A DNA stretch of 64,000 nucleotides from Terramyces sp. JEL0728 (Eukaryota; Chytridiomycota; Chytridiomycetes; Rhizophydiales; Terramycetaceae). A program made the translations under genes and the position numbers. The notes beneath the pieces were generated by a model that saw only the letters and a list, made by a program, of their open reading frames with translations, was not told where the DNA came from and made no database searches. This document shows, in pieces, positions 4,856-63,843 of the stretch; position 1 is the first letter of the stretch; the number at the start of each line of letters is the position of its first letter. Where the stretch lies: the NCBI GenBank assembly GCA_027603945.1, contig JADIIU010000022.1, positions 1 through 64,000 of the forward strand. The letters are read 5' to 3'.

Positions 4856-5372
4856 ATGTCTTTAAAAAAACAATTAATTCAAAGACTGCAAGATGCAGGA
4901 TTGGGCTGGAAGCTGTTGCCAGAGCCAGTAATCAAAACTAATCTAGAATTTGTCTTCAGCTTTTATCAACGGCTCAAAGACGTTCATCCCACCAATATGT
5001 AAACTGGAAATATTTTATAATCCGCCAAGAGATGGAGCTGGAGGAGATTCACAAGGAATGGTCAATTATTTAAATAACAGCATAAAGCAATTCGCTAAAC
5101 AGCGTCCATACCTTGAAGTTGCAGTCACCAAACGCTCAGGACCGCCAGAAGTTGTTGCACATTATAATAATGGAGCTGTAGACGCAATGAGGACACCAAG
5201 ATGGAAGCCGCATCAAATCGGAAAGCTGATTAATGATATGTGTGATATTTCTTCACCACAAAACAAAGAGAGGCAATTTCCTCGTAACGTGAAAAGAGGT
5301 GCTGGATCACACATGGCTAAAGCATTACCCGAATGGAGTCCATTTACTGCAGAAAAGATTTTCAAACCTTAA
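4856..5372 (+). CDS. Mitochondrial ribosomal protein mL43 (MRPL51/L51 family)
   Basis: One 19-nt intron (4928-4946, GTAATCAAAACTAATCTAG) is removed to give 165 aa. The protein matches the mL43 family, a thioredoxin-like component of the large mitoribosomal subunit. Key segments are LEIFYNPPRDGAGGDSQGM with the Ser/Gly-rich turn, MVNYLNNSIKQFAKQRPYLE, and VAVTKRSGPPEVVAHYNNGA, matching the family signature of a basic-helix segment followed by P-x-V-x-A-x-Y-x-NG. The C-terminus WSPFTAEKIF corresponds to the WHPFT end of the human protein. Without the intron the first 24 residues are out of frame with the rest. It converges tightly (15 nt) with alanine aminotransferase. Confidence 0.85.
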
Positions 5373-5387
5373 TAAAAATGCTGTTTA

Positions 5388-7036
5388 TTAACGGTATTTG
5401 CTCATGAATGATTCATGGAACACTTTAATGTTTTGGATAAATTCATCCATCTGATTTTCAGGAGGTAAGAATGTGGATCTAAAGTGCCATGTTCCATCTT
5501 CTTGTCCAAACCCTGAACCTGGGACGACACATACACCTGTTGCATTTAATAATTCCATCGAGTACATGCTATCTGGTTCTTGATCGTTAGCTTTTGCTGC
5601 AGCAACAGCTTTCGATGGGAGCTTAACTTGTGGGAACAGGTACATTGCACCTTGGGCATCATTGCAACTCACTCCTTCAAGACTGTTGAAAGCTGCGGCC
5701 AATTTCTGGGCTCTTCTCCGTAACGAATCTTGTTAGCGCAATCTTACCATAAATAGAATTTTGTTCCTTTTCGTACACTGGATACGACGGATCGCCTTTC
5801 TTTGGAGGGTTCATCATCAACTCAACCATGACTTGGCCTTGAACAGGGGGACACAGGGAAACAGAGGCAATTTTGTAGAACAGTTCCATTACTTCTGGTG
5901 CAACATTGACACATTCAAAGTAGCCACCTAAATTAGCGAGAGTAACCTCTTCTACCGCATTCACCGATCATTCCTTTGGAGATAGAGTGGAATGAAATTA
6001 GCTCAACAGAATCATATTTAGAGCCCATGCTTTTTAGAACCTTTTTGAATGAGTGGAACGGCAGCTCCTTTGTGTAGACGTTTGCTTGATAAACTTCATC
6101 AGCCATCAACACTAGCTTTTCTTGACGGCAAAACTCAATAATATCTTTCATTGCTTGCAGAGCGAGAGTTTGTCCAGTTGGATTTCCAGGGTTAATGACA
6201 CACAACGCGCGTACTTCAATACCTTGAACGTCCTTCTTGATCTTTTTCAAAGATTTTGTCAGTTCTTCAGCCTAAATATCAAAAAGAGTTACAGTCAAAG
6301 ACCAATCCTTGGATTCGTCCAAATAGTAAGGAGCTGGTTTCCCGCCAAGTAACGAAATTGAAGCAGTATACAAAGGATACTGCGGAATTGGAATCATAAT
6401 ACCAACATTCTCATGAGCAATGATCGTTTGGAGCACCGTTTGTACACCAGGAGACGCGCCAGCAGTCAAAAAGATTGAATTTGGGTCAGCGGGATACCCA
6501 TCCCTCCTTCCAATGGCCTCAGCAATGCGCTTTCTAACCAACGGGATTCCTATATTAAATATCCAGCACCTTGCGAATGGGAATATGCACCAATACTTCC
6601 TCCCATCGACTTTAATAGTCTAGATTAGTAAAAATCTACTCTTTTGCTCTTTGAATTGTATCTGCTGGGAAAATCCCTTTTACTAGCTCAGCATTCTTGT
6701 CGTTCAACAAGTCTGGATACTCTAATAAAGCTGACACTTGTCTAAAGAATGTAATTGGCTTTTGCCCTAACTGTTGCGGGTTTCCGATATTACAAGAGAC
6801 GACGTTTTTGAATGGCAAATTGTGAGAAGATGTTGCCAATTCCTAAGAGTTACTGATATTTACATTTCTCAATTCTTCTGCCCGGATTGCTTGTTCTCCA
6901 CGAACTGCGTATTCAAAATCTACTACTTTTGAGTTGACAGAATGTGTATTTAGAATCCCTGATATTACATAACGAATCTACCCATACTACGAGCGTTGCG
7001 AATGCATCTTTTTGGGAGCGTTTTCAATTTGAACAT
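5388..7036 (-). CDS. Alanine aminotransferase
   Basis: Removing seven introns (19-23 nt) gives 501 aa of a class I/II PLP aminotransferase, alanine-glutamate transaminase type (alanine + 2-oxoglutarate = pyruvate + glutamate). The N-terminus [19 protein letters not shown] is basic and amphipathic, suggesting mitochondrial import. Motifs in order: [82 protein letters not shown], and the PLP-lysine motif [18 protein letters not shown]. The C-terminal half has EGAMYLFP-type (QGAMYLFPQ) and GSGFGQ. Several introns interrupt these motifs directly, for example between RRG and GYF (19 nt, GTTACTCTCGCTAATTTAG). The family role is to link nitrogen and pyruvate metabolism. Confidence 0.92.
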
Positions 7037-7487
7037 TTTGAGTTGTAAAATTAAATGAAAAAAATGAGGGGTAAATTGCAATAGATAATGGCAAGACGGC
7101 CAACTCGCCCCAGTATATCGAAAGCACAGGAAGGAGCAGGATATCTGCAACCAAGAGCAGTTACTACCCGCTAATAAGCAGACTTTGTTTTCATCTCATT
7201 GCAAAACAGATTGATTCCGACAAGATTTGAGTAAATATGTCCTTCCGCATTCAGCTAATCCAAACGCCCATGACGTTTTGCATAATTTTATTATCACACG
7301 ATATTGGTGAGTTTACAATCCAGAGACGGCAGAAAGGCAGAAAGCAGGATAGTAAAGAGAAGGATGCTGTCTCCTATTTCGATATCCCAGTTTCGTACCA
7401 CGCCGTGTCTGCTTTTATTATACCATCTTACAGAATGACCTCAGCAGTGGCAAATATAAAAAGGTCGCATAATTATTCAAATTCATA
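7037..7487. other. Divergent intergenic region without recognised gene
   Basis: It lies between the alanine aminotransferase start and the next membrane-protein gene. An 83-codon open frame (7237-7488, plus strand) has no recognisable features and abuts the next ATG, so I treat it as chance. No RNA gene seen. Confidence 0.4.
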
Positions 7488-8450
7488 ATGTTTCTCCAGT
7501 CATTTACTTCCACGCAAGTTGTCCAGATTGTCACGTTGGTGTTTGCAATTACCATTCATCTGATTGCTTTTTCAACTACCATATAGAAATGGCAGAGACT
7601 TCCAGCTCGATTCCGATTATTTACTTTATCTAGCACTGCTGTTCTCTCTACTGCTAAAATAGAATCTTGTACTTTGCAGTATCATTCAACACCATGTATT
7701 TCTGTATAGTGTCCCGCAAGATTCTCTATTCCTTGGTATATACTGGGTTTTTTATCTTTGACATGTATCAAATGTCGAAAATTAGAGCTATTTCTGGACC
7801 CATCGCGCATTTTGTTTGGCTCACTATTTGCAATGCGGCTATTATCGTATAGTTACAACCTATATTGGGTTACCGCTACACAGGTAGGAATAGTAAATGG
7901 CGTAGGCGCTTGCAAGACCATTTTCCCCAACGACTGGCAAATCTATCAGGAGCATATCATTTCTGTTGTTTTTGAATTGGGGTTGGCACTTCAATTTGCA
8001 AACTTTATCTATAGGACCAGAGTGCCCAATGTTCCGCTTCAAGACTTTTTTGCCAAAGTAGTTGATAACGAGACGTGCTCCTTTGTAATATACCTAATTG
8101 TGGAAATCCTGTACCTGATTGTATTCCAATTCAATATCGTCAAGCAGTGGGTGCTCAATTCATTCTACTTTTTGATCCCCTCTGTTTTGTACTTGTCCAA
8201 TATCGTTATTCTAACAGGCAAAAAAGGACTGTCAACCAAGAAAGCCAGTGGATCCAAGGTTCTGTCGGTTGTGCGAAAAGCTGAGATGAAGGACGAATTA
8301 AACAAAACACTGCCAAAATCCGACACTGTAAAACCTGAATCTAGCAGGGATCTTGCTACCATCCGCAAGAACTCTGTCAAGGACGAATCATATCTACGAA
8401 CGATCCGAAAGCCGTCGGTTGACAATTCTGCTCCAATTCGTAAAGAATAA
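7488..8450 (+). CDS. Polytopic membrane protein, possibly receptor-like (5' structure uncertain)
   Basis: The 3' two thirds are secure: hydrophobic helices around LFGSLFAMRLLSYSYNLYW, IISVVFELGLALQFANFIY, FVIYLIVEILYLIVFQFNIV and YFLIPSVLYLSNIVIL, then a long charged cytoplasmic-type tail rich in Ser/Lys. The 5' part has three frame changes. One intron (22 nt, ending GCTAAAATAG) is typical. One model that closes in frame also needs introns of about 46 and 31 nt, unusually long here, and gives about 287 aa with six or seven membrane segments. The topology resembles seven-helix receptors, but I see no family signature. The tail contains two short repeats of a SVKDES/SVRKAEMKDE type. Function unknown. 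Confidence 0.55.
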
Positions 8451-8591
8451 ACTTTGATTTTTTTATTCAGAGCCAAATAGACTGATCATACAATAAATTT
8501 CATCCAATTCTGAATTTAGAACATCCAAAGGAAAAACCGGCTCTAAAATTTCCTTTTTAACTCTAGTTGAAAAAAATTTTCTTCACTTCTA

Positions 8592-9657
8592 ATGACTAAC
8601 GGAATTAAAATCTTTTCTGGAAATTCCCACAAGGAATTTGCAATCTTGGTAGCAAAGTAGCGCACTATCTTACTGTAGACGTTTAGGATTGAAATTGGCC
8701 AACTGCGTTGTCAACAAATACTCGAACCAAGAAACTTCAGTCACAATCGGAGAGTCTGGTTTATATTTTCTAATATTCAGTGCGTGATGAAGACGTATTT
8801 ATCATTCAATCTGGCTGTGGTGAGATTAATGGTACTTGGAAACTAAATCTAGATAATTTAATGGAGTTATTGATCATGATCAACGCCTGCAAGACAGCTT
8901 CGGCAAAAAGAATCACTGCAGTTATGCCATGCTTTCCATACGCAAGACAAGATAAAAAAGATAAATCCCGTGCGCCTATTACTGCCAAACTGGTTGCTAA
9001 TATGCTGACTGTTGCTGGAGCCGACCATGTTATCACAATGGATCTTCACGCCAGTCAAATTCAAGGGTTCTTCAACATTCCAGTCGACAATTTATATGCG
9101 GAGCCTAGCACTCTTAAGCATATCAGAGATTGCATTCCGGATTTTGGAAATGGTGTGATTGTTTCTCCCGATGCTGGCGGTGCAAAAAGGTAGTTACAAA
9201 ATAATATCAGAGCAACTGCAATTGCCGATAAACTTGATGTGGAATTCGCTTTAATCCACAAAGAACGTAAAAAGGCGAACGAAGTATCAAGAATGGTGCT
9301 CGTCGGTGATGTTAAGGGAAGAGCATGTATTTTGGTGGATGATATGGCTGACACTTGTGGTACCTTGGGACTAGCCGCCAAAGTATTGATGGAAAACGGA
9401 GCAACCAAGGTCTATGCCATGGTGACCCACGCTGTTTTATCTGGAAAAGCATTGGAAGTAATCAACAACTCTGCTTTGGAGCAGATTATTGTCGTAATCA
9501 ATTTCTAATTTAGACAAATACTATCCCACAAGACCGTATTGCACCGTTGTGCCCGAAATTACACTTTATTGATGTATCTTCAACTTTCGCCGAGGCAATT
9601 AGACGTACTCACAATGGGGAAAGCATCAGTTATCTCTTCAACTATGTCCCAAACTAA
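8592..9657 (+). CDS. Ribose-phosphate pyrophosphokinase (PRPP synthetase)
   Basis: Five introns (8657-8678, 8759-8780, 8832-8852, 9190-9210, 9494-9513; 20-22 nt) are removed to give 319 aa, the usual length of class I PRPP synthetase. The enzyme makes PRPP from ribose-5-phosphate and ATP for purine, pyrimidine and His/Trp synthesis. Visible motifs: [106 protein letters not shown], and the PRPP loop [12 protein letters not shown]. The end [20 protein letters not shown] through [13 protein letters not shown] is canonical. The third intron (21 nt) lacks an in-frame stop, so retention would insert seven residues (see findings). With IMPDH further on, it represents purine supply. Confidence 0.96.
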
Positions 9658-9708
9658 CTTAATAAATACAATGAGCATATTATGGATATTAGTCTATTAA
9701 ATATGAAT

Positions 9709-11766
9709 TTAATGTTTGCCTCTCGCCCTTCCTCGGAATGAACCTCTTCCCCTCTTACCGTTTGCGCTTTTCCTTTCTTTGCCATCAAAATCTCTCTTTT
9801 TGTTTGGATTAAAAGTGATAGATAAATTTCCAGAACCGCCAAATTTAGCATCCTCCCTTGTCCCAACTTTCTCTTTTTCGAGTCTTTTACCAAACATGAC
9901 CTCTTGTGCACTTTCCCTTTGTATGGTTTCTTGGTCATTTGCAGTTGCATTAAAGCCATCCTGAAATTAAAGAATATTACCTTGAGCTCGTAGAGCTGAG
10001 GACCTCTCTTCTTGTACTTTGCAAATCGGATTTCATCTTGATCTTCAGAATCATCGTCTTCTTGCACCGGCTCATATTTAGCTTTGGTGATTTTTGTTTG
10101 TGATTCTGAAGGGTGGTGGAGTTTATATTCGTGTGAAGTTGTGTCGACTTGGAATGCAGGGTCAGAGAACATGTTCTTGAAACGGTCATCTTCCATGATG
10201 CTGGAAGTATCCTTCTTTTTCTTCTTCTTTTGATCATCATCCGAATCAGACATTTCAAGTAAATCTGCAGCAATCGCAGAGTTAACTTTGGGCAATTTGC
10301 TTTTGGCGGAAATTCTGGAAGCTCTCTTTTCTTCAATTTTCTTTTGAACCAAATTCTTTTTGTATTCGTCAAATTCAAACGGATTGGCAATCGCCTTTGC
10401 CTTTTCGTAGAGACGCAAATCTACAAAGAAACCGTGCATGTATGCCTTCAAGACATTTGTGCCAATTAAATGGTCCAATCCAAGACTAATGTTAATCGGT
10501 AATTACTTGGACAGCTCTTTTCTAGTTACAAACTTGTAGTCGTCATAGAGAGTAGTATTTGGATTTTCTTCCAATTCTTCGGTAATATTATCCAAAAACG
10601 AACACCATTTCGGCGCAGTTCCTAATGCTGGAATATAGTATGTTTGAATTTGAGTGGCTATCGTTAATTTAGTAAAACCTTCTCCAGCCAACATTATCAA
10701 TCCAGAATCATCAAAGACACAAGTATGATTAATGTCATTTGGAGCTTCAATGTTTGTAAAGATCGATCCGTCATTCTTGTTCCACAATTTTACAATTTTT
10801 GTATCTGAAGAGATAACATTCCCAGAAGCGTGGAATTGTAAAGAATGGATTGGATATCCGTACTGGTGATCTTTTACCAGCAATGGGGTAGGTCTTCGTA
10901 AATCGTATAAAACAACCTGGCCTGTTGAAGTCCCAGCCATAAAAGACAGTCCATCAAGGCCAAAGTGCATACTGGTAACTTCTGGCAGTGTGTCAAGAAG
11001 TGAAGAGTCGATTTTGCTGACTACAGCCTCCGCAATATCTAAAATACCAATTCGCTTCTTTTCAGTTGGATGCCAAAATTCAACCTTGCCATTTGAACCG
11101 CCAAACCCAAATAGTTGATGGGCAGGACTTATTTGACAGACATTGATTTCCGGCAGCGAGGTTTCCAAAGGTGCCATGAACCTTCCTTGCTCCAGATTCA
11201 ATCTCCATACTTCGTTGCTAGCTCCTCCAATTAATACATCGCACGAAGGATAATGATAGGTAAGGTCACGGCCAAACTAAATAAAGGAAAACAAACCTTT
11301 GGCACTCTGGTCTGATAATGCATTCCGTAATGAGAGTGGAATTCAACTGTCCTATCACTTTGTAAATGCACACTCTTTGTCCAATCTTCAGATAATATCT
11401 TGTTAGTATGTTAATACCTCAAAAGTAACATTTTCACTGTTTGTGTGCCGTTCAAATTTCATTGACATTTGATCCAAATCCCATACTCTGATTTGTGGTT
11501 TATAGACACCTTGATTAATCCAAAACAAACCAGTTGCCATCAAATGCTTTCCGTCTCTAGTCTGTCGTAGTTTCATACTTGCCTCTGGGAATTGAAAATC
11601 CTGAATCAGCTCAATGCGGTTTCTCCATGCTACAAATTGGATAACATTTACCTTGGTCGTATTTCAACTTTTTCTTGTTCCTCTGTACTTGCCAATCTGG
11701 AATAGCAGACTTGGAAGCACTCGTAATGGAGTATATTTTGATATTGTTTGCATTTGAGACTTCCAT
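9709..11766 (-). CDS. Enp2/NOL10-type nucleolar WD-repeat protein
   Basis: Six introns (19-22 nt) are removed to give 644 aa. It matches yeast Enp2 and human NOL10, nucleolar proteins needed for 40S ribosome assembly. The start MEVSNANNIKIYSIT and SAIPDWQVQRNKKKLKYD fits the family opening. The WD-type region includes MATGVYKPQIRVWD, ILSEDWTKSVHLQSDRTVEF, RLNLEQGRFMAPLETSLPEI, GGSNGKVEFWHPTEKKR and MAGTSTGQVVLYDLRRPTP. The diagnostic block is AYMHGFFVDLRLYEKAKAIANPF, then the NUC153 motif MEDDRFKNMFSDPAFQVD. The C-terminus is basic and ends with an RG-rich tail (GKRGRGSFRGRARGKH), reached only by splicing a 20-nt intron (GTAATATTCTTTAATTTCAG). It converges with PRPP synthetase, 51 nt apart. 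Confidence 0.9.
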
Positions 11767-19449: not shown

Positions 19450-21341
19450 ATGCTGGGAGATGATTCAATGAACGATGACGGAATTGGGAAAAAGAAACTC
19501 ACTTGTGGTAAATGATTTGATTTATTCCTTAGAACTGTGCAAGCAGCGAAAAGTAAAGTGCAACGGAGAAACACCTTGCAACAGCTGTTTACAATACAAA
19601 AAGCTCAAGGACAAGACGCAATGTACCTACAACAACGGTCCGCCTACCAAAAGAAAGCGTAGACCAAAGGAACAAGCAGTGGAAGGCATGTTGCAGTTTG
19701 AGAAAATCTCGGCACCGAAAAGCATTCAACTTGCAAAACCAGAACCCCTCGAAACATTGGTTCAGACTTTAGAGGAATATGAATATTTGCCGGACAGGAG
19801 CTACGGAACCAATATTGAAACCCACCTGTTGTCCCTTTCTTTTTGCGCCAACGCTGGCTTTACCGTCGAGGATTCCATGCAAGGTGTGATCCCTATTCAA
19901 AGGTACATTAAATTAATACCAGACGGCACAAACTTTCCACTTCCTTAAAGAAAGCACTATGCTTCCATTCGGTGTTTATTTCCTCCTCAAAACAGCTATT
20001 TTCTTCTTCGAATCCAAGTTTCCAAGAAAGACTGGAGGTCGCAAGGGGATATGAAGTAGATCACAGTGTTCTTAAATCTCCATCTCACTACTCCTCAATT
20101 AGAGACTTCTTTGATGATTTTAGAGCGCTTTTAATCCAGTGCGCTGCATTTGCGAATTTAGGAGATGAAGGTCAAGGAAGACAGTTGCTCAGTATGTATT
20201 GTTAATATTAGATAATACTGTTCATCTGGGCAGAACTTATGGTTTCTTTCAGAGTAACTTTACGGAAATGTTTACGGATCATCAGCGATATGGATTTTCA
20301 TATGAACAAGAGCAGAATGAAAAGCTCTCACTATGGATACAGCTGTTGAAATTGGATACGCAGTTCGCAAGAGTTACTGGATATGATTACCTGTTCCAAG
20401 AATTTCCAGAAGTGCAGCCAACACAATCATCGCCGTTTTATCAGTCCCCATCTTCGAGATTGTGCCATCCTGACTTGGGTGCCAATTCTATATGGCAAGA
20501 ATCCTTCTGGGCTCCGATTTTTGATGATTTTAAGGAATCTGCTTATATCATGGCATTTTTGTCTCGCAATGCTGAATATCGTGTGCATTCTGAACTGATG
20601 CAAATTATCTCACATCGCAAGATTATTGACTTTTCTCGTACAAAATTGGTTGATCCATTACAGACAGGAGATGATTACGTTCGATTGCACCACCACAACT
20701 ATTTGCTGGATTCTTTCACTTTGATGTCTTCCAAATTTGCATTGATAAGCAGTTTAAACCCATTTGCTTTCAACAATTCAGGAACCTTGACCCAGACACA
20801 CCACGGACTTCGTAATCATGAAATATTTGCAAATACATTTACTGTATTGGCAATGTTCTCACACATCCATCTATCTGGGGCCCAAACCAACGATCCAAAA
20901 TTATATCCCCTTGAAGTTAATGGCCCAGAAGAGTACAGTCCAAAGGATGTGTTTTTAGCGGCATTGAACGCTATTTCATACCTGATTGATGTGGCAAACG
21001 GACCTGCGAAGCCATCCGATAGTATATCAGGTCCATACAATTACCCTCCGCAGCAGCTAAGCAGCTGTATCAACAATTCTATTGCACCAAATGTTCCCAG
21101 CCCATACCTTTGCAGTTTAGGAATAGCATTCGACATTTACTATATCACTTCGTGCTGCCTTATAGCGCTTCAAACTTCTTATGAAGTGTCCAATCCCGAG
21201 ATGATTCACTGTATCAGCGTTGTACAAACTAAAATCATTCCGGCACTTGGTGGTATTGCAAGAGTGTGGCCAGATGCGAACCAGTATATCAACGAATTGA
21301 TGAGGCTGCTTACTTCTGTTTCTCATTTGCAGTTTTTCTAA
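19450..21341 (+). CDS. Zn2Cys6 fungal-type transcription factor, copy 2
   Basis: Introns of 25 nt (19508-19532), 20 nt (19903-19922) and 20 nt (after RQLL) are removed to give 608 aa. The start MLGDDSMNDDGIGKKKLTC runs into the cluster CELCKQRKVKCNGETPCNSC with a further Cys in QCTYNN. It then shows the same middle region as copy 1: HLLSLSFCANAGF, GVIPIQRRHKLSTS, FFDDFRALLIQCAAFANLG, HLGRTYGFFQ, LKLDTQFARVTGYDYLF, FSHIHLSGAQTNDPK and SPYLCSLGIAFDIYYITSCC. A basic TKRKRRPK segment after the cluster is a likely nuclear localisation signal, absent from copy 1. Its stop is followed 16 nt later by a MITE-like element. Confidence 0.9.
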
Positions 21342-21357
21342 TAGATCTTTCTAATAC

Positions 21358-21669
21358 TTGGGGGTTTCAAAGTTGAAAAAATAAAAAATTGTACAACCAA
21401 AAAAATCAATTGGGGGTTTCAAAGTTTCACAAATATTAAATTGTACAACCAAAAAAATCAACGCCACCAACTTGGTTGTTGCAAAAGGGGTGTTCAAAGT
21501 TCTCCAATAATTTTTTGTTTATTTTTTGCTCTTACATCACACATGTTTGTTTATATTTTTGCTTGCTTGGTTGCAAAAACCAACAATGTGTTTGTCTGTA
21601 ATTGTTTGTTTTTACTGTACATTTTTTTTACAGTACAATTTAATATTTGTGAAACTTTGAAACCCCCAA
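21358..21669. mobile_element. MITE-like element, copy 1
   Basis: A non-coding element of about 312 bp with TTGGGGG...CCCCCAA ends. The inner left terminus (21408-21446) and the right terminus (21633-21671) form a perfect 39-bp inverted repeat. The left end is partly duplicated: a second, shorter terminus begins at 21358 and both are followed by GTACAACCAAAAAAATCAA. The core (about 21493-21560) reappears in opposite orientation in copy 2 (30713-31081). No transposase is encoded. It fills nearly the whole space between the second Zn2Cys6 gene and the HN1-like gene. No target-site duplication is obvious. Confidence 0.8.
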
Positions 21670-21677
21670 TTTTGGAC

Positions 21678-22126
21678 ATGAAAAAGTTGGCCAAAATACG
21701 AATGGAAAGCACACCACCAACTTCTCCGAGGACTCCTAGCAGTAATATTTGCTAAACCAGGGAGAATTCCTCCTGGCGGCCGCAGCCAAATCGCATTCGG
21801 CGACAACAATTTGCCAGTAACTCCAAAGCCTTCAATTAAACTGTACAATAACAACAACGAGTCGCCTTCTCATGCATCAATTTCATCACTCCGTAATAAA
21901 TACTTGATTTAGACTTGGATCACCAAGAACACCAGTCTTCCCAAAGTCCAGAATCGCTCAACAAAATCCAAAAGAAATTACCTAGAGAACAACAGAGTTC
22001 TATTGTATTTGGAGATGATGGCGACGGCGAAGAGAAAAAGAGGTTGTATGGAAAGAAACGAGTAGCCAATCCGCCTGTAATGAATTTTAATATTAGGGAG
22101 GCCATTCATCCGTCTTTTTTGGCTAA
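21678..22126 (+). CDS. HN1/Jupiter-like microtubule-associated small protein
   Basis: Three introns (19, 20, 20 nt) are removed to give 129 aa. The protein is low-complexity and disordered but carries the spaced signature of the HN1/Jupiter family: RIPPGGRSQIAFGD near the N-terminus and NPPGGHSSVFFG at the extreme C-terminus, with SSIVFGDD between. Animal Jupiter/HN1 proteins bind microtubules and show the same PPGG-x-S repeats. The last PPGG is rebuilt only when the final intron (GTAATGAATTTTAATATTAG) is removed, which supports the model. Its first ATG lies 9 nt after the MITE-like element; an ATG at 21702 (MESTPPTSP) is an alternative start. Family assignment rests on short motifs. Confidence 0.65.
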
Positions 22127-22182
22127 TAAACAAGAGTTGCATTTGCGTGCCTTTATAATTTGACAAGTGTATTTTCAATCTC

Positions 22183-23175
22183 ATGAATCCCAATCCTGCT
22201 CCTGCCACCAATATATTCTCCCTAGTGAAATCGATTCCGTTAGGAACTAGCGCACTCCTCTCAATCTCCACCTTCTTTTTCATAATCAACATATTCTCAG
22301 GATGGCAGTTTACAGAATATCTCTGTTTAGCGTCAACAAACACGACAAACGGGATCCTCACACATATATTTCCAATCCTATTTAATCCGCTCGTTCATAA
22401 AGGATTTTATCATCAAATAATCGCAACGATTTTGTTTCCATTTGTTGCAGCTAACGTTGAATCGCACCTCGGCACTTTCCAGTTCTTATACTTGTTTTTA
22501 CTCGGAACTACTCTCGTTTCTATCGTTTATGTTGCGTATGTGTGGATCTGGAGTTGGATATTCACAAGTTGGGGCTACGCTTGTATTGAAGGACTGGATA
22601 TTCCATTTTTTATCTTTTTGTCGATAGAATCACTGAATAGTAGGGGGATTTATGAAATTACAAGGTACTGCATTGTTAATTAGTAAAATGGGACTGGCGA
22701 TTCCAAGGGATATTTATCCATTTCCATTCTTGATTATCCTGTTTATCCTGATGCCTTTCACCACGATTTTGGGACATTTGTTTGCATGCGCTGTCGGATA
22801 TCTATGTAATTGTTGCTAATCCAGACTACTTTAAAGCTCTAGACGATTTGATGCTTACCACACGCGCAGTAAATTCGCTGGAAACATCTGGACTGTTTGC
22901 CTGGTTTGTCAATCTAAGCTCATTTGTACCTAAACCGGGCGATGTTCAATTGCCGGATCCAGTTCAAACGAATGCCCCAGGCTCTTTCCCCAACCAAAGA
23001 CTACTGTAATTATAACTGATCTAGCGACCCTAGAAACGCAACTGGTGAACCGTCGTTTATGACTCAAGTATCCAATGCATTCAGTAGGAACAAGTATATT
23101 CCCATCAACGAAAACCAGCAAGAACCATTGCTCTGGGATGAAACCGATGGTAGCCAACCCTCGCCTACAAAATAA
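22183..23175 (+). CDS. Rhomboid-superfamily membrane protein, probably inactive
   Basis: Three 19-nt introns are removed to give 311 aa. Hydrophobic helices and spacing match Rbd2/RHBDD2-type rhomboids: ILFNPLVHKGFYHQIIATIL (loop 1 and TM2 region), VESHLGTFQFLYLFLLG, and the late GHLFACAVGYLYYF that corresponds to the TM6 GH motif. The catalytic GxSG serine position reads YACIEGLD with no Ser, so I expect a pseudoprotease. The C-terminal tail after the membrane part is soluble and polar, with a PxxP-rich segment. Inactive rhomboids act in membrane-protein quality control and trafficking. It is separated by 56 nt from the HN1-like gene. Confidence 0.7.
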
Positions 23176-23240
23176 AGTTGCTTAAAGAATATTTAATTTC
23201 CCAATCGGGTTTCAAGTTTCCACAAAAATTATTAGAGCAA

Positions 23241-24255
23241 ATGTCTGTGCAATACTTTATATCCAAATCCACAAACCCATTCTTGAATTTGGCATTTGAA
23301 GACTGGCTATTCAGACACAACCCAGCTCGCCATATACTATTTTTCTACAGGAATTCGCAGAGTATTATAATTGGAAGGAACCAGAATCCCTGGAAGGAAA
23401 TCAATTTCAGTGCGCTCAGGTCTCATAAAGTGCCTCTAGTAAGAAGAAATAGCGGCGGAGGGACGGTATATCATGTATTTGTTTTTAAAACAGGATTTGG
23501 GAAATACAAATTATTGCCATATCATGCCAAGAAATATCTTTGAAAGGGATTTAACGGTAAAAATAATCAGAAATGCGCTGCACCAATTGGATATACCAGC
23601 AGAGGTGAATGCACGATACGACTTGGTAATCAACAGCGAAAAGATTTCAGGGAGTGCTTACAAACTGGTCAACAGCAGAGCGTATCACCATGGAACAATG
23701 TTGATTGACACTGATTTGAAGATTTTGAATACGTTTTTGAATCCTAAAAAGAAGCAACTGGTAGGAAATGGAATCGAGAGTGTGCGATCCATCGTAACAA
23801 AATTAAGGGAGTTCTCTTACACTGTCGGCCATTTGGACTTTTGTACCAGCTCAATTAATGAATTTCACAAGACGTATGGAGATGAATTCGCGCCAAAAGT
23901 AGAGTACTTGGACGAAACAAACATGAATGAAATTGTCAAAGCAAATTTAGAAAAGTTGAAGGTGCTTGATTCTTATACTAGACTAGAGAATGGATATACC
24001 ACCAAACACCGCCATTTACGCTGAAGATACACGAAAAGTTTGATTGGGGACCAACTGTAATTTTTACTGACTTAGGATATTAACCTTAAAGTAAGGAATG
24101 GAGAAATACAAGAAATCGAGATTGCAAGTCCTGATAAGAGAGTGAATGCTGAGGTTCAAGATGCGCTCCAGGGCAAGTATTTCGACACCCTGCATTCCCT
24201 CAAATTCGACAAGGAATCGGAAATCATCAAAGACAGCATAATAAAAAGCTTGTAG
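23241..24255 (+). CDS. Lipoate-protein ligase A-like protein
   Basis: Introns of 19, 20 and 19 nt are removed to give 318 aa. The catalytic domain carries NLAFEDWLF, FYRNSQSIIIGRNQNPW, RRNSGGGTVYHDLGNTNY and the substrate lysine motif ISGSAYK followed by AYHHGTMLIDTDL, all hallmarks of LplA-type ligases. The intron GTATTTGTTTTTAAAACAG interrupts the motif exactly between TVYH and DLGN. After EWIYHQTPPFTLKIHEKFDWG the C-terminal accessory domain follows. The enzyme attaches lipoic acid to E2 subunits of mitochondrial dehydrogenases, or transfers it as in yeast Lip3. No clear mitochondrial presequence is seen after the chosen ATG. Confidence 0.9.
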
Positions 24256-31463: not shown

Positions 31464-33648
31464 ATGGAGCCTCACTTGTACACCAACGACAGTGTAAACT
31501 CCCAACTGGACAATCTAATGGTTAACAACATGGTCCCAGTCGACACGACTAGGGTATTATTAATATACACTGGGGGAACTATTGGTATGAAAAATTCTGT
31601 TGGGGGATACAAGCCTGAAGAGGGATACATCACCCACAAACTAGCTCAAAATCCTCGTTTCCATGAAATGGAAGACGATAAATTAAGTTTGTTCAATTCA
31701 GTGAATGTTTCAGTCAAACCAGATGAGCAGGAATACACTCACATGATAAATGGAATCAATGTTCAAAAAAGAGAATTGCAAGCCTTGATCACTCCATATT
31801 CGTTGTTCAACAAACGCACTAGATATTCCGTGCTAGAATACAAGCCGCTGTTGGATTCCTCCAATATGACAATGTCGGACTGGATTAAAATTGCTACGGA
31901 TATTGAAATGAATTACGAGCTGTACGACGCATTTGTTGTTTTGCATGGAACAGATACAATGGCATACACTGCCAGTGCACTTAGTTTTTTATTGGAAAAC
32001 CTGGGGAAAACTGTTATTCTGACTGGATCACAAGTGCCGATATCAGAAGTGCGTACCGACGCAATAGATAATTTGCTGGGAGCATTAACTATTGCTGGCC
32101 ATTATATTATCCCTGAAGTTGGACTGTTCTTTGACAACAAGTTATTCAGGGGTAATCGATCGTCCAAAGTTAATGCGATTGAATTTAACGCATTCGAGTC
32201 TCCAAATTTAAGACCACTAGTGCACGTTGGGATAAATATTGGTAATTGCCTAGTTTATTATAGATGTTAGTTGGGAAAACATTTGGCAGCCCAAGCGAAT
32301 AGCGAGATTTAGGGTACAAAAGGTTTTGAATTCATCAGTTGCTTCTTTGCGACTATTCCCCGGTATTACTGAAGCAACTGTAAAAGCATTCTTTTCACCT
32401 GCTATTAAAGGCGTTGTCTTGGAAACTTATGGGTCTGGAAATGCTCCTACAAACCGAAAAGACATTTTAGCTATTTTGAAAGATGCTTGTGATAGAGGTG
32501 TTGTCATTGTGAATTGCTCTCAGGTACTTTTTAACTAACAAGTGCAAAAAAGCAACTGTTACTAGCCTGTATGAAACTGGAGTGGCATTGCTGAATATCG
32601 GCGTTGTTCCTGGATCAGATATGACCCCAGAATGTGCCTTGACAAAGCTCAGTTATTTATTAGGAAAATATGAAGAGGATCCTGCAAGAGTTCGTTCATT
32701 AATTAGAAAAAGCCTGCGTGGGGAATTGACTGTGGTTAGTCGCCGCCAAAGATTCACTTACCAAAACCCTAACGTGCTAGTTTCGTCACAAAATGCGCTG
32801 ATTAGTTCTGTAATGTCACTTTTAGGTGTCGCCACGCAAGATTCTATTCAACAGACTCCGATGGAAAGCAATTTCGATTTGAAAAGAAGGGATTCGACCC
32901 ATGATTTGGAATCTGGTACCGATGGCGAACATGATACAGTAGGACTGGAAAGACAGCTTGTCCCTCTTGCTTATTGCCATTCGGCAAGACAAGGAGATGT
33001 CAAGACTCTCTCACTTTTGATTCAAGAATTTGAATTTATGATTAATCAGCCTAGCAATGATGGAATTACAGCTCTCCACGCAGCTGCAATTGACAATCAG
33101 TTAGAGGTGGTTCAATTATTATTGCATCATGGTGCGAATGTACATCTGCGTGACAAATTTGGTAGATCCCCACTTTACAATTCTGTATTCTTTCACCACA
33201 AGGAAATTGCACAATTACTCCGACAAGCCGGTGCGCATTTTGCTCAAGAAGAAGCTTCAGAAATTGCAAACCAACTATTTGAATCTGTTACGAGAAATGA
33301 CTTGGACCACATCAAGCTATTAATTGAATGCGGTATTAATCCAAACATCGCCAACGAAGATGGGCGAACCATCTTGCATCAAGTACTTGCAACTAATGAT
33401 AGGCTGCAACTGCAAACAAGATTGAAATCGTCAACTATTTATTTACTTTGACCGGTGAGGAACCAACAGCAATGACAAGATCATTCTCGTCAGCCTCGAT
33501 TGACGACTCGAAATATCTCCCCCCACATATCGACGTTAATCTTGAACCAAAAGATAGATGGGGGAGAACACCATTGATGGATGCGAAAACATTTTATCGA
33601 TCTGAAGTAATTTATGTGCTTGAAAAAGCATTAAAACTTAGACTATAA
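31464..33648 (+). CDS. Type I L-asparaginase with C-terminal ankyrin repeats
   Basis: Introns of 22, 19 and 20 nt are removed to give 707 aa. The asparaginase domain shows the first catalytic threonine in IYTGGTIGMKN and the second in VVLHGTDTMAYTAS, with ILTGSQVPISEVRTDA, NLLGALTIAG, FRGNRSSKVNAIEFNAFESP and LETYGSGNAPTNRK, NIGVVPGSDMTPECALTKL. The C-terminal third holds ankyrin repeats (DGITALHAAAIDNQLEVVQL, HGANVHLRDKFGRSPLYNSV, DGRTILHQAATANKIEIVNY, DRWGRTPLMDAKTF). This order is that of the animal ASPG/lysophospholipase-type enzymes. It hydrolyses asparagine to aspartate and ammonia. The 19-nt intron ends AAG (GTACTTTTTAACTAACAAG). It converges with the deubiquitinase gene (27 nt gap). 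Confidence 0.92.
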
Positions 33649-45785: not shown

Positions 45786-46887
45786 ATGGAGGGTGAAGCA
45801 CAACATATCAAAAAAAGACAAAAGTACAGTCACTTGTACGAAAAGATTCAACGCTCTACTCCTCCTCCTGGAACTCCACCAGTTGAAGAACAGCGGTACT
45901 TGTCTCAACCTCACACTGTTGAAGTCATCGGTGTATCATTCTCTGCTGGACAGGTAAATTTGCGACTAATGGACAGCCTAAAGATGGATGTGAAGTCGGC
46001 CCACACTTGATGATCAAAGCCGGAGTTCTTGACCAAATGGAAGGATTGGGGTGGGTTGTTGAATGCCCAGATGCTTTGCCATCGTATGAACATCTCGAAC
46101 CTGAAGAGGAGGAAGAAGGCAAATACGGACTTTTGAAGAATGTCGAATATGTCTCTCGCGTTACTGAAAAAATCCACCATAAATTAAAGAAAGCTGCAAA
46201 GAAGGGCCACCTTGCTCTTACTTTGGGAGGTGATCATTCAATCGGCATGGCTACTGTTTCTGGAGCACTTGCTGCGTATCCTGACATTGGTGTAATTTGG
46301 GTGTAAGTATTCGCTAATGTAGTGATGCGCATGCGGATATCAACACTGCTGAAACTACTGAAAGCGGCAACTTGCACGGATGCCCAGTTTCCTTTTTGAT
46401 GGGAATCGGCCCAAAGATTAAGGCTTTCGACTGGCTGAAATCAACACTTAAACCAAACAGAATTGTGTATATTGGCCTTCGTGATGTTGATGCTGGAGAG
46501 AAAAAGATCTTGAAGGAACACAATATAAAGTGCTTCTCAATGCACGAAGTAGACAAATTAGGGATCGGAAAAGTTATGGAGCAAACCTATGAGCATCTTG
46601 GCCGCAAATCTCCAATCCACCTTTCCTTTGATGTAGATGCGTTGGATCCTTCTGTTGCCCCATCTACCGGCACTCCAGTTAGAGGCGGCCTCACTTTCAG
46701 AGAAGGCCATTATATCTGCGAATCCATCTTTGAAACTGGAAGATTAGTTTCTATGGACATGGTAGAAGTTAACCCTGAATTAGCAGATGATGAAAAGTCA
46801 CGTCAAGCAACTGTCAATGTAAATAGGTTTTAACCTTAGGTTGGATGTTCGTTAATCAGAGCTGCTATGGGAGAATCCCTTTTGTAA
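45786..46887 (+). CDS. Arginase
   Basis: Introns of 23, 20 and 21 nt are removed to give 345 aa. Arginase hydrolyses arginine to ornithine and urea with a binuclear manganese centre. Metal ligands are visible: [16 protein letters not shown] (His), [20 protein letters not shown] (Asp-His-Asp) and [20 protein letters not shown] (two Asp). [14 protein letters not shown] and [20 protein letters not shown] complete the fold. The second intron (46303-46322, GTAAGTATTCGCTAATGTAG) falls inside the first base of the DAHAD aspartate codon region; without its removal the active site is destroyed. The start [13 protein letters not shown] is preceded by a TATA-like box. Confidence 0.95.
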
Positions 46888-47049: not shown

Positions 47050-48460
<1,411 letters not shown>

Positions 48461-58799: not shown

Positions 58800-59998
58800 T
58801 TACTCATCGAGCAATTCATCTTCTTCGTCGTCAACCTTTGCTTCAGACCGTTGGACCGTTGCAAACGGCATTCTATTCTTGCGCTGCTGCTCAATTGCGT
58901 CTAATTGTGCTTGCATACCCTTTGACACTTTCGGTTCATCTTCTTCAGTCTCTTGCTCCTGTTCTGAAGCTTCCCCTTCTACTTCAGAGTCAGAATTGAT
59001 ACTGATTGACCCATCCACCGACTCTTCCTATCATTAAATTCATTTACATCATTCTCTGACTCCTCCGACTCTCCTGATTCAGCATAATCTTCATCCTCTG
59101 ATTCCTCATGTTCCATAGGAGCTTTGTTTTCTCCAGGTACCTTTTCAGCCTCCCCTGCTTTGTGGTTAATCAAATTTATGAATTTAGCTACACCTAGCGA
59201 TTACAATCGGGCTACCATCATAAATTTCATAATCAATCATTGAAAATTCGGTTTGAGATTCGTCGGCACCAACGACAAGAATGTTGAATGTTCGACCTGT
59301 CACAGAAACAATTTCAATCGCGGAAATCTCATTGAATTCGAAAAACATTATTGGTTTCTTGATCCCAAAGAATAACCCTTGTGCAAAGAATACTAACATT
59401 CTAAATTAATCCAGATTTACCCTTCCTTTGCCTTCAAGAAACATTTTACCGCAACTTCAGTCTCAGGAAATAACTTTGGCAAAGGCTCAATGAATTCCAA
59501 CTTGTAAAATCTTTGAACCAGTTCCTGGACGATTTGCTTTGGCTTCAGTTTACCAAACTTTTGATCTCCAACTACTTTAAATTTGGTATCGACGTCTTCA
59601 AATCCAAACAAAATTGAATCTCCACCATCCTTGTGAACGAATACAACTGTCCAGTGCAATTTCGCTTTGTTTGGAGTTACAAAGCAAGCGACATGTTTCA
59701 AATCCTCCACTCTAATTGCAAAGTCTGTGCTTGATCCTATCGACAAGCAAATATTTTGATTGTAAAAAACAACTGAAGCCTTCTTTCTAATTGGCAATGT
59801 TACAGAAATATCAGAAATGGTTGCAAGAGGAGTTCCAAAGTTTTCGACTAATTTTGGCTTTTTGTGAACTTGATCCTGCGAAAAATGGCCTAATAATGCA
59901 CTGACTGTTGATAGAGTATCTGGGTATCGATCAATCATATCTTGCACCTGTCTTTTTAGGGTTGGTGGCAGACTTGTAAGTTGTGGATCTCCAGTCAT
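58800..59998 (-). CDS. Rtt106-type histone chaperone
   Basis: Introns of 20, 22 and 20 nt are removed to give 378 aa. N-terminal helical part (MTGDPQLTSLPPTLKRQVQD) is followed by a double-PH module: ISDISVTLPIRKKASVVFYN, KHVACFVTPNKAKLHWTVVF, then after the first intron GMLVFFAQGLFFGIKKPIMF and VTGRTFNILVVGAD with TEFSMIDYEIY. The C-terminus is long and acidic (EEESEDEDYAESGESEESE-like), ending DDEEDELLDE. This order is that of Rtt106, which binds H3-H4 (H3K56ac) for replication-coupled and silencing chromatin assembly. Pob3/SSRP1 would be longer. The second PH half is joined only by splicing GTAAATCTGGATTAATTTAG. Confidence 0.85.
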
Positions 59999-60127
59999 TT
60001 CAAGATTCCAAAAAATAAATTTCTCACATGTATTCCTTTCGATAAACGAATGTGATTGGTGCTTGTATATTCCTTAAATAGCGTAGTGATGTAATTCAGT
60101 CGCGTCCAAAAGTTCAACTTTACTCTG

Positions 60128-60793
60128 ATGTTGAACTTTTTTGGCTTTTACAATGTAAGATATCCTAATGTAGTCTGTGAAATTGCACCGGTCTAGTGTA
60201 GACGACCATAGGCTGCAGAATTTGGCAAAATCAACGTTGGGTTCAGCATCGCTTTCAAAGCTCGCAAAGTTGCCAAAGGGAGAAGATTTGAATGAATGGA
60301 TAGCAGTACATCTGGTTGATTTTTATAACCACTTGAACTTGCTTTTCGCAACCTGTCAAGAATGTACCAGAGAAAAGTGTCCGATAATGAATGCAGGGAA
60401 AAAATACGAATTCTACTGGTGCGACGGTGTAGAGTTCAAGCGACCAAGTACGAATAGTTAATTCTAGTCAAATTATCAGCTCCGGAATATATTGCGAATT
60501 TGCTGAATTGGGTTAAAGCTTATATAGATGACGAACAAGTATTTCCAACAGGTACAAGCCAGTTCCACAAAAAATTCATTCAGACTGCCAAGCAGATATC
60601 CAAGCGGCTGTGCAGAGTGTATGGGCATTTGTATTTATCGCACTTTGAAGAATTTGAAAAATACAGAGTTGAATCGGTGCTGAATACCAGCTTCAAACAC
60701 TTTTACTTTTTTGTTACAGAGTTTGAATTGGTTGCGGAAAAGGATTTAGAGTTCCTCAGGCCGTTGATTGCCAAGATAGAAAAAGTAGTGTAA
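60128..60793 (+). CDS. MOB1-type kinase activator
   Basis: Two introns (60155-60173, 19 nt; and 20 nt GTACGAATAGTTAATTCTAG) are removed to give 208 aa. The first exon is nine codons (MLNFFGFYN). The protein is a classic MOB: LGSASLSKLAKLPKGEDLNE, WIAVHLVDFYNHLNLLFATC, zinc ligands in CTREKCPIMNAG, YEFYWCDGVEFKRPIKLSAP, ISKRLCRVYGHLYLSHF (two His ligands) and LNTSFKHFYFFVTEFELV. MOB1 activates NDR/LATS kinases in mitotic exit and Hippo-type signalling. The second intron lies inside the conserved K-x-PIK-x-SAP block, which it makes continuous. Confidence 0.92.
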
Positions 60794-60826
60794 CCAATAC
60801 AATTGTTGACTATCCAAGTTTATTCT

Positions 60827-62475
60827 TTATTTGAACAACCTCTTTTCATAGTTGTATAATCCATGGACACCACCTTCGGCTTGCGCACTTGGTGTTCTCT
60901 TTTCAAATCTAACTTTGCCTTCAGCAACACCGCCTTGGAGCTCTGGGACATCTTTAACACCGATATCTTGGAAACCATGCTGGACACCAGTAACCAAGTA
61001 TCCCATGAATTTCTTCACGGTGCCTTTGTCAACAACGGATCCTGAGACACCCTGTGCGACTTTAACGCGGCCATCTTCAGAAAAGTAACGTTTGCCAGCA
61101 GCATCGCCAGTATCCATAGCTTCCAAAGAGCCCATACCACGATATCTCTTTAATCTTTGCCCTTCATGGTAAAAGTAGTCACCAGGAGACTCGGTTGTGC
61201 CTGCCAATAAACTACCCATCATAACAGCAGAAGCACCAAGAGCGACAGCTTTAATGATATGTCCAACATTGGAAATACCACCATCTGCAATGACCGGCAC
61301 ACCAAATTGTCTAGCATATTGAGCAACTCTAAATACAGCAGAGCCCTGTGGTCTACCACAAGCCATAACTTCTTGAGTAACTAGATTAGAAAAACCTTAC
61401 TGCATATGCTTCCAGATCCCATACCAACTTTGATGGCATCAGCGCCAGCCAGAATCAGAGACCTAGCTTGTTCTTCGGTGACTACATTTCCAGCAATTAC
61501 ATCAATTTGTGAATAAGTTTTCTTGATGTATTTGATCATGTTGATTTGGAAAAGCGAGTTTCCTTGACTGGAATCTAGTACAACAATATCCAATCCAGCT
61601 TCGACTAAGGCAGCCAATCTGATTTTGTCTTCTTCGTGAGTTGAAATGGCGGCAGCACACAATAATTGCTTGGAGGTTTTAGTTTTAGATGCTAGAGGAT
61701 AATCTCTAGCCTTGATTAAATCTGAACGAGCTAAAAGTGCTGTCAGGTTTCCATTTTCATCAACAATTGGCAACTTGCCTTGAATTACACAAAAAATACC
61801 TTTGCGAGAAGAAGACAAAATCTTGTTGGCTTCAGCGAGAGAGATTCCCTTCTTAGCAGTGACCAATTCTGTTACCATGATATCCTTGAGTTTGATATTG
61901 GCATCAGCATCGCTCTGCAAAAAGTCGATATCTCTGGAAGTAACCAATCCTAATAATTTGGATCCTAGTTTGCCATTTTCGGTAACGGGAATACCAGAAT
62001 ATCCAAACTTTTCTTTAATCTTCAACAAATCTAAAACAGTGTTGGTTGGACCCAAGCAAACTGGATCACTGATGAACCCATTTTCGAATTTCTAAATCAG
62101 AAAAGGATGTACCTTTACTTTGCGAACCATTTCCGCTTGGTCTGTGACTGGGCAATTGTGGTGAATTACACCCAATCCACCGTTTAATGCCATGTGAATA
62201 GCCATTTCAGATTCGGTGACAGTGTCCATAGGAGATGACAATAACGGGGTTTTAATCCTGAATCTTTTTGTAATTTGGGTTTCCAAGTTGACAATTGAAG
62301 CTGGAAAATCAATGTAGCCAGGGAGGATTAGGAAATCGTTATATGTCAATCCACCAGATATTTGCGCATCAAATAGTTGAGCACCGGTGAGGCCGTCACT
62401 GGTTGGTTTCTGGAGCAGCGCCAACAGCTCCTTGTTCTTTTGAGGGTCGCTAGATAAAATCAATTCAGCAGACAT
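60827..62475 (-). CDS. Inosine-5'-monophosphate dehydrogenase
   Basis: Introns of 21 and 20 nt are removed to give 535 aa. IMPDH oxidises IMP to XMP, the committed step to GTP. Visible: [46 protein letters not shown], two CBS motifs (about 120-245), [57 protein letters not shown] with the catalytic Cys, [40 protein letters not shown] including the flap Arg-Tyr, and [20 protein letters not shown]. The second intron (GTAAGGTTTTTCTAATCTAG) cuts the codon right after the active-site Cys. It converges with MOB1 (33 nt gap). Confidence 0.96.
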
Positions 62476-62578
62476 TGCAATAATTTAAACCAAAAAAAAT
62501 TTTCACTATTTTTCCCCTGTCCGCATGTGGCGCAGGAACGAGAACCTTAATAAGGGAATTTTCAGACAAAACCCCAAT

Positions 62579-63843
62579 TTATTCTTCAAAGTCATCACCA
62601 ATAAATTCACCCAATCGCTCGTGAATGTCAATCCACTCGCTCTTGTCAACCCCATGTTGCCCTTGCTCAAAATCTCGTCTCAATGCAGGATCAAAGTACA
62701 GCACATTGAAATCATGGATTTGCCGGGCATAATCCAAGCAACTGCCCAGCCCCGCATGCACTTCTTTGATTCCAAATTTCGGAAACCCTTTAAAATCTTG
62801 GAAGGGGTCAAACAATATCGATTTGGTCTTTGGCTGTGTCCCGCGATAAAGCGCGTAGCTATCATACTCCCCTTTCTTATCCAATGCCAAATCCCAGTTA
62901 TTAAATTCCATTCCCAATAGCTTTCCGATTCCCCCATAATAATTCAAGTCGATGCGTCTTGAATCGTTGAGCCTAGTTGGAAGACTAAGAGATTCGATTC
63001 CTAAAGCTACAATAGCGCTTTGTTGGTACAAGAAAGAAAAGTCTGCTTCTATTTCCCAATGATTAACTGTCGGTAGCTGTATAGGAATATATGTAGCTTG
63101 CTCTAATAGATTATCTAAAGCTAAAATCTTGTTCATATCTGTAATTGACTTTTGTTTCAGTGAATTATTCTTGTTTTGCTGCGATAAATTCATTATTACC
63201 GAAACGCCATAAACAAGGATACTCTTGCCGTACTCTTCTGCCAAAAGCGTTACTGTGCGGGACATTAAGCCGGAAAAGCCGTCATCCAAATCACTAAAAA
63301 TTTGAAACCCTTGAGAGGCATCACACTCTTCCATTTGTTTTCTAATGCAATCTTCTATTTCCAATTCCTACAGTCAACATGATTTACATGCTCTTGATCC
63401 ACCTCCTGATTAAAGTACTGAAATTTGTTTAATTCATCGCCAAGTGTAAATTGATGCAGTTGGTAAACGCTGTCTCTATCATAATACACCGTATTGAAAT
63501 CTGAAGCATATTCCGCACCATTTAACGATTTTGTATAATCTTTTTGTTCAGTTTCTTCTGAATCCAAATCACGAATGAATTCCGAAGTTGGATTCTCTTC
63601 TTGTTTAATTACTTGAACTTTTCCATCCCAGTTCACTTGTTGATCGCCAGATGGAGCATTGCCCACGGATTTGTTGTAGTCAATCATTAGTAATCGAGGA
63701 TAAAATTGATCTTTGAATTGCCTGTACAAAACCGAATCGTTGAATAAAGTCTGCTGCGTATAGTAATTCCCAATAATATTAAAGTAGTGAGTTGTAGCGA
63801 ATGAACTTTTATGTCCAAATGATAATGTAACAATTTCCCTCAT
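62579..63843 (-). CDS. Misato/Dml1-type tubulin-like protein
   Basis: A 20-nt intron (GTAAATCATGTTGACTGTAG) is removed to give 414 aa. The opening MREIVTLSFGHKSSFATTHY resembles the tubulin/FtsZ-like start of Misato and yeast Dml1, where GHxSNFVGTHFWN is typical; YPRLLMIDYNKSVG fits the next segment. DDGFSGLMSRTVTLLAEEYG and YIPIQLPTVNHWEIEADFSF, YQQSAIVALGIESLSLPTRL follow the DML1 tubulin part. The family acts in mitochondrial distribution and chromosome segregation. It is a full-length, though diverged, copy; GTP-binding glycines are not intact. Divergent spacing to the next gene is short. Confidence 0.85.

Follow-up and report, generated by a model that had tools for sequence, protein, structure and literature searches.

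The window analyzed here is the whole 64,000-nucleotide (nt) stretch of DNA covering positions 1–64000 of contig 22 of the Terramyces sp. JEL0728 assembly (15,016,339 bases in 231 contigs), from an organism placed by NCBI in the Chytridiomycota, Rhizophydiales, Terramycetaceae. Its genes are interrupted by very short predicted introns, here termed tiny introns (19–23 nt), which are found on both strands between 4856 and 63843, with some at 2534–4186 too, and make up 100 of the 114 introns predicted. Judged by its encoded proteins, the window is fungal nuclear DNA from Terramyces sp. JEL0728 or an organism very close to it, since the models of IMP dehydrogenase (IMPDH), a RhoGEF-FYVE protein and alanine aminotransferase (AlaAT) match deposited Terramyces sp. 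JEL0728 proteins best. Specifically, the spliced IMPDH model was identical over 528/528 residues to the deposited Terramyces sp. JEL0728 protein, followed by that of Boothiomyces macroporosus (93%) and then other chytrids. Scans of the window with Rfam at gathering threshold and for tRNAs by ARAGORN (bacterial code) were empty, and nothing was found when 8 kb of window DNA was compared with plasmid records and one window protein with viral contigs. The genes and introns used in the analysis are the following (coordinates of the window; intron lengths in brackets where given).

2381–4525, minus strand: RhoGEF-PH-FYVE gene with 11 predicted introns of 19–24 nt at 4163–4186, 4082–4103, 3930–3948, 3802–3821, 3611–3629, 3503–3521, 3229–3249, 3075–3094, 2988–3008, 2620–2639 and 2534–2553; Pfam RhoGEF, PH and FYVE on the spliced model
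4856–5372, plus strand: gene resembling mitochondrial ribosomal L51/S25/CI-B8 proteins (Pfam 25.9 bits, just under the cut-off of 26.6 bits) with a 19-nt intron at 4928–4946
5388–6985, minus strand: AlaAT gene with introns at 6843–6863, 6620–6639, 6550–6569, 6272–6292, 5928–5946 and 5729–5747, and a first intron modeled at 6959–6981 (23 nt)
8592–9657, plus strand: PRPP synthetase gene with introns at 8657–8678, 8759–8780, 8832–8852, 9190–9210 and 9494–9513 (20–22 nt)
23475–23493, plus strand: LplA-type 19-nt intron splitting GTVYH/DLGN
45786–46887, plus strand: arginase gene with introns at 45954–45976 (23 nt), 46303–46322 (20 nt) and 46819–46839 (21 nt)
47053–48460, plus strand: CDK-like (CDKL) kinase gene with introns at 47221–47241, 47540–47559, 47671–47690, 47781–47800, 47941–47960 and 48135–48154 (20–21 nt)
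60128–60793, plus strand: MOB gene with introns at 60155–60173 (19 nt) and 60448–60467 (20 nt)
60827–62475, minus strand: IMPDH gene with introns at 62092–62112 (21 nt), 61779–61799 (21 nt) and 61381–61400 (20 nt)

Homologues of solved structure were available for six of these genes, which together carry 26 introns. In alignments with the best PDB match of each, read by eye against the list of junctions, all 23 covered junctions were gap-free within five residues on either side and the other three lay outside the alignments; the 23 introns concerned are all 19–23 nt long. By gene, this was the case for 6/6 covered junctions of AlaAT (3tcm), 5/5 of PRPP synthetase (4lyg), 3/3 of arginase (5ynl, with a 1-residue gap seven residues from the third), 5/5 of the CDKL kinase (4aaa, the sixth being outside the alignment), 1/1 of MOB (5b5v, the first being outside) and 3/3 of IMPDH (6rpu). 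The three introns singled out in an earlier note on this DNA, at 4928–4946, 46303–46322 and 60155–60173, were found at exactly these positions, each beginning with GT, ending with AG and containing a branch-like TAAY motif. The four protein motifs that it had described as continuous after splicing were indeed restored (arginase W/VDAHAD, IMPDH SIC/ITQ, MOB P/IKLSAP and LplA GTVYH/DLGN, the slash marking the junction). Deposited Terramyces proteins agreed with the present models at 16/21 junctions (IMPDH 3/3, AlaAT 6/7, RhoGEF 7/11), agreement being an alignment with no gap or replaced stretch at the junction, as counted from gaps.

Deposited proteins of related chytrids differ at some of the same junctions. 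In Boothiomyces macroporosus, IMPDH is longer by exactly seven residues where Terramyces has a 21-nt intron, and the stretch GIFVVIPG at this place is close to the in-frame reading of the Terramyces intron and its flanks, GIFCVIQG. The RhoGEF of Boothiomyces sp. JEL0838 is without 36 and 114 residues, bounded by Terramyces junctions 177/213 and 270/384. On the simplest reading, Boothiomyces would share the tiny introns and its annotation would have kept one and skipped exons between others. A gap in the Globomyces sp. JEL0801 AlaAT begins at residue 33, also a junction, and is a weaker hint in the same direction. Two other gaps, one of 14 residues in the AlaAT of Boothiomyces and one of 10 residues in the IMPDH of Globomyces, showed no exact match to a junction. 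From these alignments, the deposited Terramyces and Boothiomyces proteins of these genes appear partly garbled, with exons absent or an insert present at tiny-intron junctions.

Two pairs of loci on different contigs (C199/C111 and C30/C33) are 98.9% and 97.8% identical, so that diverged copies, either haplotypes or duplicates, coexist in the assembly. Tiny introns were present in both copies of each pair. In the four gene models of these pairs, introns account for 180 of 4,227 gene-body bases, yet two of the three gene-body indels fall in introns, both being 1-nt changes (21 versus 20 nt each). The third concerns a start codon on which the models of the two copies disagree, and 11 further indels fall outside the models. 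Single-nucleotide differences between the copies numbered 35 in exons, one in introns and 20 elsewhere. All of these numbers are small.

Intron lengths and decoy controls

The analysis covered 264 kb, that is the window and 20 other 10-kb stretches, one each from 20 other contigs (21 sequences). A length-blind and motif-blind gene finder used a codon score only and allowed any GT..AG stretch of 12–120 nt as an intron at a flat cost; introns >120 nt were barred and GT..AG ends imposed. In a trained version, donor, acceptor and length preferences were learned over four rounds, and counts were taken from models scoring >20. As decoys, other dinucleotide end pairs were run through the same finder (seven in the window, two in the 20 stretches and six trained alike). 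In the window, 22 of the 37 GT..AG introns of the length-blind finder were 18–22 nt long, against 2, 2, 2, 3, 2, 5 and 7 for the seven decoy pairs, each from 33–39 introns. In the 20 other stretches, 55/107 introns were of 19–22 nt, compared with 3/91 and 4/86 for the two decoys.

Window models scoring >20 contained, besides the 100 tiny introns (28 of 19 nt, 42 of 20 nt, 18 of 21 nt, 10 of 22 nt and two of 23 nt), one intron of 24 nt and 13 longer ones. The observation in the earlier note of nearly 100 introns, almost all of 19–25 nt and most commonly of 19–21 nt, is thus borne out, and the length-blind finder with its decoys shows the peak to exceed chance. Its extension to the genome also held, as tiny introns were predicted in all 20 stretches from other contigs and hence in each of the 21 sequences. 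Across the 264 kb, the trained finder placed 320 of its 363 introns at 19–23 nt, with a mode of 20 nt among introns allowed up to 120 nt (19 nt, 84; 20 nt, 143; 21 nt, 65; 22 nt, 24; 23 nt, 4; outside this range, 43). Such clustering of most introns close to the shortest size is what characterizes genomes of tiny-intron architecture, where the minimum is ~15–21 nt. The six decoy pairs trained alike gave 306–425 introns each but merely 17–59 at 19–23 nt, and their best 5-nt bin held 39–98 introns as compared with 320. At least one tiny intron was predicted in 90 of 126 gene models. With 320 of them in 206 kb of coding sequence, their density is ~1.5 per kb. Extrapolated from the 264 kb to 15 Mb, the genome would have ~18,000 tiny introns, a rough figure that includes duplicate haplotype copies and some false predictions.

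Lengths were not multiples of three in 255 of the 320 tiny introns. An in-frame stop was present in 52 of the 65 introns of 21 nt, a figure biased by the design of the finder, which misses stop-free introns of a multiple of three, and no selection against such introns is claimed. In a strict scan with the motif GT[AG]..CTAAY..AG, matches were more numerous than expected at 19 nt (12 versus 2.0), 20 nt (11 versus 3.3) and 22 nt (6 versus 2.7). The long introns predicted in window models range from 27 to 117 nt, and at least three are within the model at 19475–24255, which appears to merge neighboring genes (Zn2Cys6-type, rhomboid-like and LplA-like, named here from their motifs). These long predictions were not counted as evidence for long introns, though they may be real. 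Some longer introns, a minority, are probably present, as the deposited AlaAT protein implies one of 32 nt.

Intron signals and splicing machinery

The tiny introns have a mean length of 20.1 nt and are 70% A+T, with phases 0/1/2 represented by 132/119/69 introns. The donor consensus is GUAAUU (GTAATT in DNA) with A at +3 in 84–89%. Position +5 of the donor is usually a strong G; among introns of 18–23 nt from the length-blind and motif-blind finder (window and 20 stretches), G was found at +5 in only 18%, with T in 46–49% at +5 and in 56–62% at +6. A branch-like TRA[CTA] motif occurs after position 5 in 281/320 introns. Its last A usually falls at nucleotide 14 or 15, with five nt (136) or six nt (104) left before the intron end in 240/320. 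Introns end in TAG (225), CAG (53), AAG (41) or GAG (1). The typical intron is composed of a GUA(A)UU donor, UAAY with its A at nucleotide 14–15 and an AG five to six nt on, with no space for a polypyrimidine tract. This arrangement has the GT..AG ends and the branch motif near the 3' end of U2-type introns, and decoy ends give no such length peak. U12-type introns are characterized by an RTATCCTTT donor and a CCTTAAC branch, which the GTAATT donor and TAAY branch do not match, the comparison being of consensus sequences rather than of individual introns.

Searches of the genome recovered, above cut-offs, the U2 small nuclear RNA (snRNA) with its GTAGTA branch-binding sequence, the U5 snRNA, and the second-step factors Slu7 and Prp18. 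For Slu7, the Pfam profile is matched over its whole length (1–253/253) by the spliced model, at 289 bits. A U2AF2-like protein scored 251.7 bits in a six-frame search and its spliced model has RRM domains. The Slu7, Prp18 and U2AF2-like gene models themselves carry predicted tiny introns. Among candidates for the remaining snRNAs, two sub-threshold U6 matches were discarded as they lie inside a predicted gene that has tiny introns of its own and resembles VTT-domain proteins (under the Pfam cut-off). Four patterns for U1 and U6 gave 13 matches (5, 0, 4 and 4), and the ten inspected had the appearance of coding or ordinary sequence.

Interpretation and rival explanations

Taken together, these data make it very probable that the segments are U2-type spliceosomal introns, shrunk to near-minimal size throughout the nuclear DNA of this chytrid. 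The proposal in the earlier note of real spliceosomal introns of ~20 nt in a fungal nuclear genome is accordingly supported by homology, by deposited models and by haplotype indels, that is by DNA and protein evidence.

Several observations weigh against this interpretation or limit it. Splicing itself is inferred, from that same DNA and protein evidence. The training loop yields 306–425 spurious introns for each decoy, and because of the decoy counts perhaps 5–18% of the 320 tiny introns could be false. TRA[CTA] is lacking after position 5 in 39/320, and the strict scan showed no excess at 21 nt (1 versus 4.7 expected). The deposited Terramyces RhoGEF departs from the present model at 4/11 junctions, in three places. 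In one of these it has a gap of 44 residues, and there the proteins of Boothiomyces macroporosus and Globomyces pollinis-pini side with the present model. The start of the deposited AlaAT implies a longer first intron of 32 nt with an upstream start codon, which from the sequence is probably correct, instead of the 23 nt modeled here. The U2AF2 match is below the curated threshold of 310.3, and the same profile also matches in two bacterial control genomes. U1 was not found by the Rfam model (41/233 candidates scored) or by patterns, and for U6 the Rfam model (48/1328 candidates scored) gave only sub-threshold matches and the patterns nothing convincing; the assembly may lack both genes, and neither result is evidence of absence.

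The idea that the segments arose as errors of sequencing or assembly, or that the genes are pseudogenes, has a negligible probability. It could draw on the fragmented state of the assembly (231 contigs) with its diverged duplicate copies, but errors would not bear GTA..TAAY..TAG at constant spacing. The segments are moreover found in 90/126 gene models, including IMPDH, PRPP synthetase and arginase, and in both copies of each haplotype pair, and many of them are also spliced out in the deposited annotation. It is also highly improbable that the segments are tolerated without being spliced, whether as lineage-specific in-frame coding inserts (the 21-nt cases) or by ribosomal bypassing. Thirteen of the 65 segments of 21 nt have no in-frame stop, and the seven additional residues of the Boothiomyces IMPDH fall where Terramyces has such a stop-free segment; however, most tiny introns (255/320) are not multiples of three, the insert is confined to Boothiomyces among the IMPDHs of five relatives and is absent from the best PDB match, and the segments contain donor and branch signals.

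A bias of the finder toward short introns, such that the tiny ones are a minority and a large class of fungal introns of normal length is missed, would be compatible with the 43/363 predicted introns outside 19–23 nt, the exclusion of introns >120 nt and the 32-nt intron implied by the deposited AlaAT. This seems improbable to us, as the length-blind finder was open to 12–120 nt and still peaked at 19–22 nt, the 23 homology-anchored introns were all of 19–23 nt, and TRAY near the end was seen in 11/49 length-blind introns of ≥24 nt versus 67/83 of 18–23 nt (middle setting). An altered spliceosome acting on real introns is unlikely. In this case the GUAAUU donor and the short spacing would be recognized through a changed U1 5' end, a changed U6 or the loss of factors. 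In its favor are the scarcity of G (18%) relative to T (46–49%) at donor +5 with the motif- and length-blind finder, and the failure to recover U1 and U6. On the other hand, those model searches scored the candidates only in part (41/233 and 48/1328), the U2 branch-binding sequence and the U5 loop look normal (the latter by comparison with the standard loop sequence), and Slu7, Prp18 and the U2AF2-like protein are present. Furthermore, the commonest intron of the ciliate Stentor coeruleus also begins with GUAAUU, and its U1 is reported to be conventional (PMC9505925).

For the favored interpretation, which fits a conventional U2-type pathway acting on shrunken introns, a mechanism can be outlined whose steps, considered jointly, are somewhat likelier to hold than to fail. 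Each intron would be defined as a single unit, with U1 pairing mainly to GUA(A) before a quick hand-over to U6 and U2, its GUAGUA intact, pairing with UAAY. As the U1 and U2 sites nearly touch, there would be little room for the two small nuclear ribonucleoproteins to bind next to each other in the way they do on long introns. The AG would already be within reach for step two, without scanning, and the protein set of the pathway would still include the U2AF2-like protein, Slu7 and Prp18. The narrow range of 19–22 nt may represent a lower limit on length, to which introns were cut down by deletion in the ancestry of the Terramycetaceae. The snRNA pairing steps are inferred only, because U1 was not found and U6 was sub-threshold. 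A conventional mechanism would go with U1 ACUUACCU and U6 ACAGAGA, and a re-tuned one with a change opposite donor +5.

A bolder reading is offered tentatively, the chances being somewhat against it. The Terramycetaceae, perhaps with Globomyces, may be the first fungal nuclear genomes with introns converged on ~20 nt, in which 5' splice-site recognition was re-tuned to GUAAUU largely without +5 G, possibly via a changed U1 or U6, and Slu7, Prp18 and the U2AF2-like protein were kept. If true, minimal introns need no loss of second-step factors.

Relation to known minimal introns

Genomes with tiny introns are already known, and Terramyces, to judge from its sequence, adds a fungal case that is widespread and unusual for a fungus. 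In the heterotrich ciliate Stentor coeruleus, introns are similarly held to a narrow minimal length (15–16 nt), with the branch A at position 10 of 15 followed by five nt, as here, and the commonest intron GUAAUUUUUAUAUAG begins like the Terramyces donor (PMC9505925). U1 and U2 are reported as conserved in Stentor, with GUAGUA in U2, and U2AF2 is listed as present (PMC9505925). Stentor introns are, however, four to five nt shorter and belong to an unrelated lineage, and its table of factors shows no Slu7 or Prp18, whereas both were found in Terramyces (PMC9505925). The introns of the nucleomorph of the chlorarachniophyte Bigelowiella have a practically equal range and narrowness (18–21 nt, as cited in PMC10245619), but this is the relict nucleus of an endosymbiont with >800 introns in ~300 genes (PMC10245619), in contrast to a 15-Mb fungal nuclear assembly. 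Mikrocytid introns are also narrow in range and near the lower limit (16–17 nt), in a reduced parasite with 224 introns in 179 genes and 17–19 spliceosomal proteins (PMC10245619), compared with ~1.5 tiny introns per kb of coding sequence in Terramyces. The view in the earlier note that the size is extreme for a fungal nucleus therefore stands, but it is no record, and the comparable systems include the mikrocytids too.

Among fungi, Cryptococcus neoformans likewise has an intron-rich genome with GT..AG introns and a small population of <40 nt (PMC11913375), but its mean of 56 nt (PMC11913375) or 63 bp, termed relatively short (PMC8476143), is about three times longer. Introns of <60 nt were called ultra-short in 2025, when C. 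neoformans had the highest share among the fungi compared (PMC11913375), and a Trichomonas paper of the same year placed 23 nt among the shortest known introns (PMC12316389). No report of such introns in Terramyces or Rhizophydiales was present among the matches listed, which cover titles and the starts of abstracts and leave most subscription journals outside. The raw fact is already public: the deposited annotation contains many of these introns.

The lower size limit of introns for the spliceosome has so far been studied in ciliates, relict nuclei and reduced parasites. A fungus with many introns of this size would be independent of all of these. By keeping Slu7 and Prp18, Terramyces separates a short branch-to-AG distance from the loss of step-two factors; if splicing proceeds as proposed, their presence alongside the short spacing suggests that such spacing does not require their loss. 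There is also a practical side, since surveys that drop introns <30 bp, as one pan-eukaryotic survey did (PMC10639083), miss tiny introns of the Terramyces type, and since deposited Terramycetaceae proteins show gaps and inserts at tiny-intron junctions.

Other features of the window were noted in passing. The CDKL kinase family, represented at 47053–48460, has been tied to flagella and reported only in zoosporic fungi including Boothiomyces (PMC12075339). A 23-bp direct repeat, aatgcagccattgtatagtcaac, occupies 4777–4799 and 4811–4833, directly upstream of the gene at 4856. The window further contains a glycosyl hydrolase family 18 gene at 1090–2298 (minus strand) and, at 31464–33648 (plus strand), a gene for an asparaginase with C-terminal ankyrin repeats.

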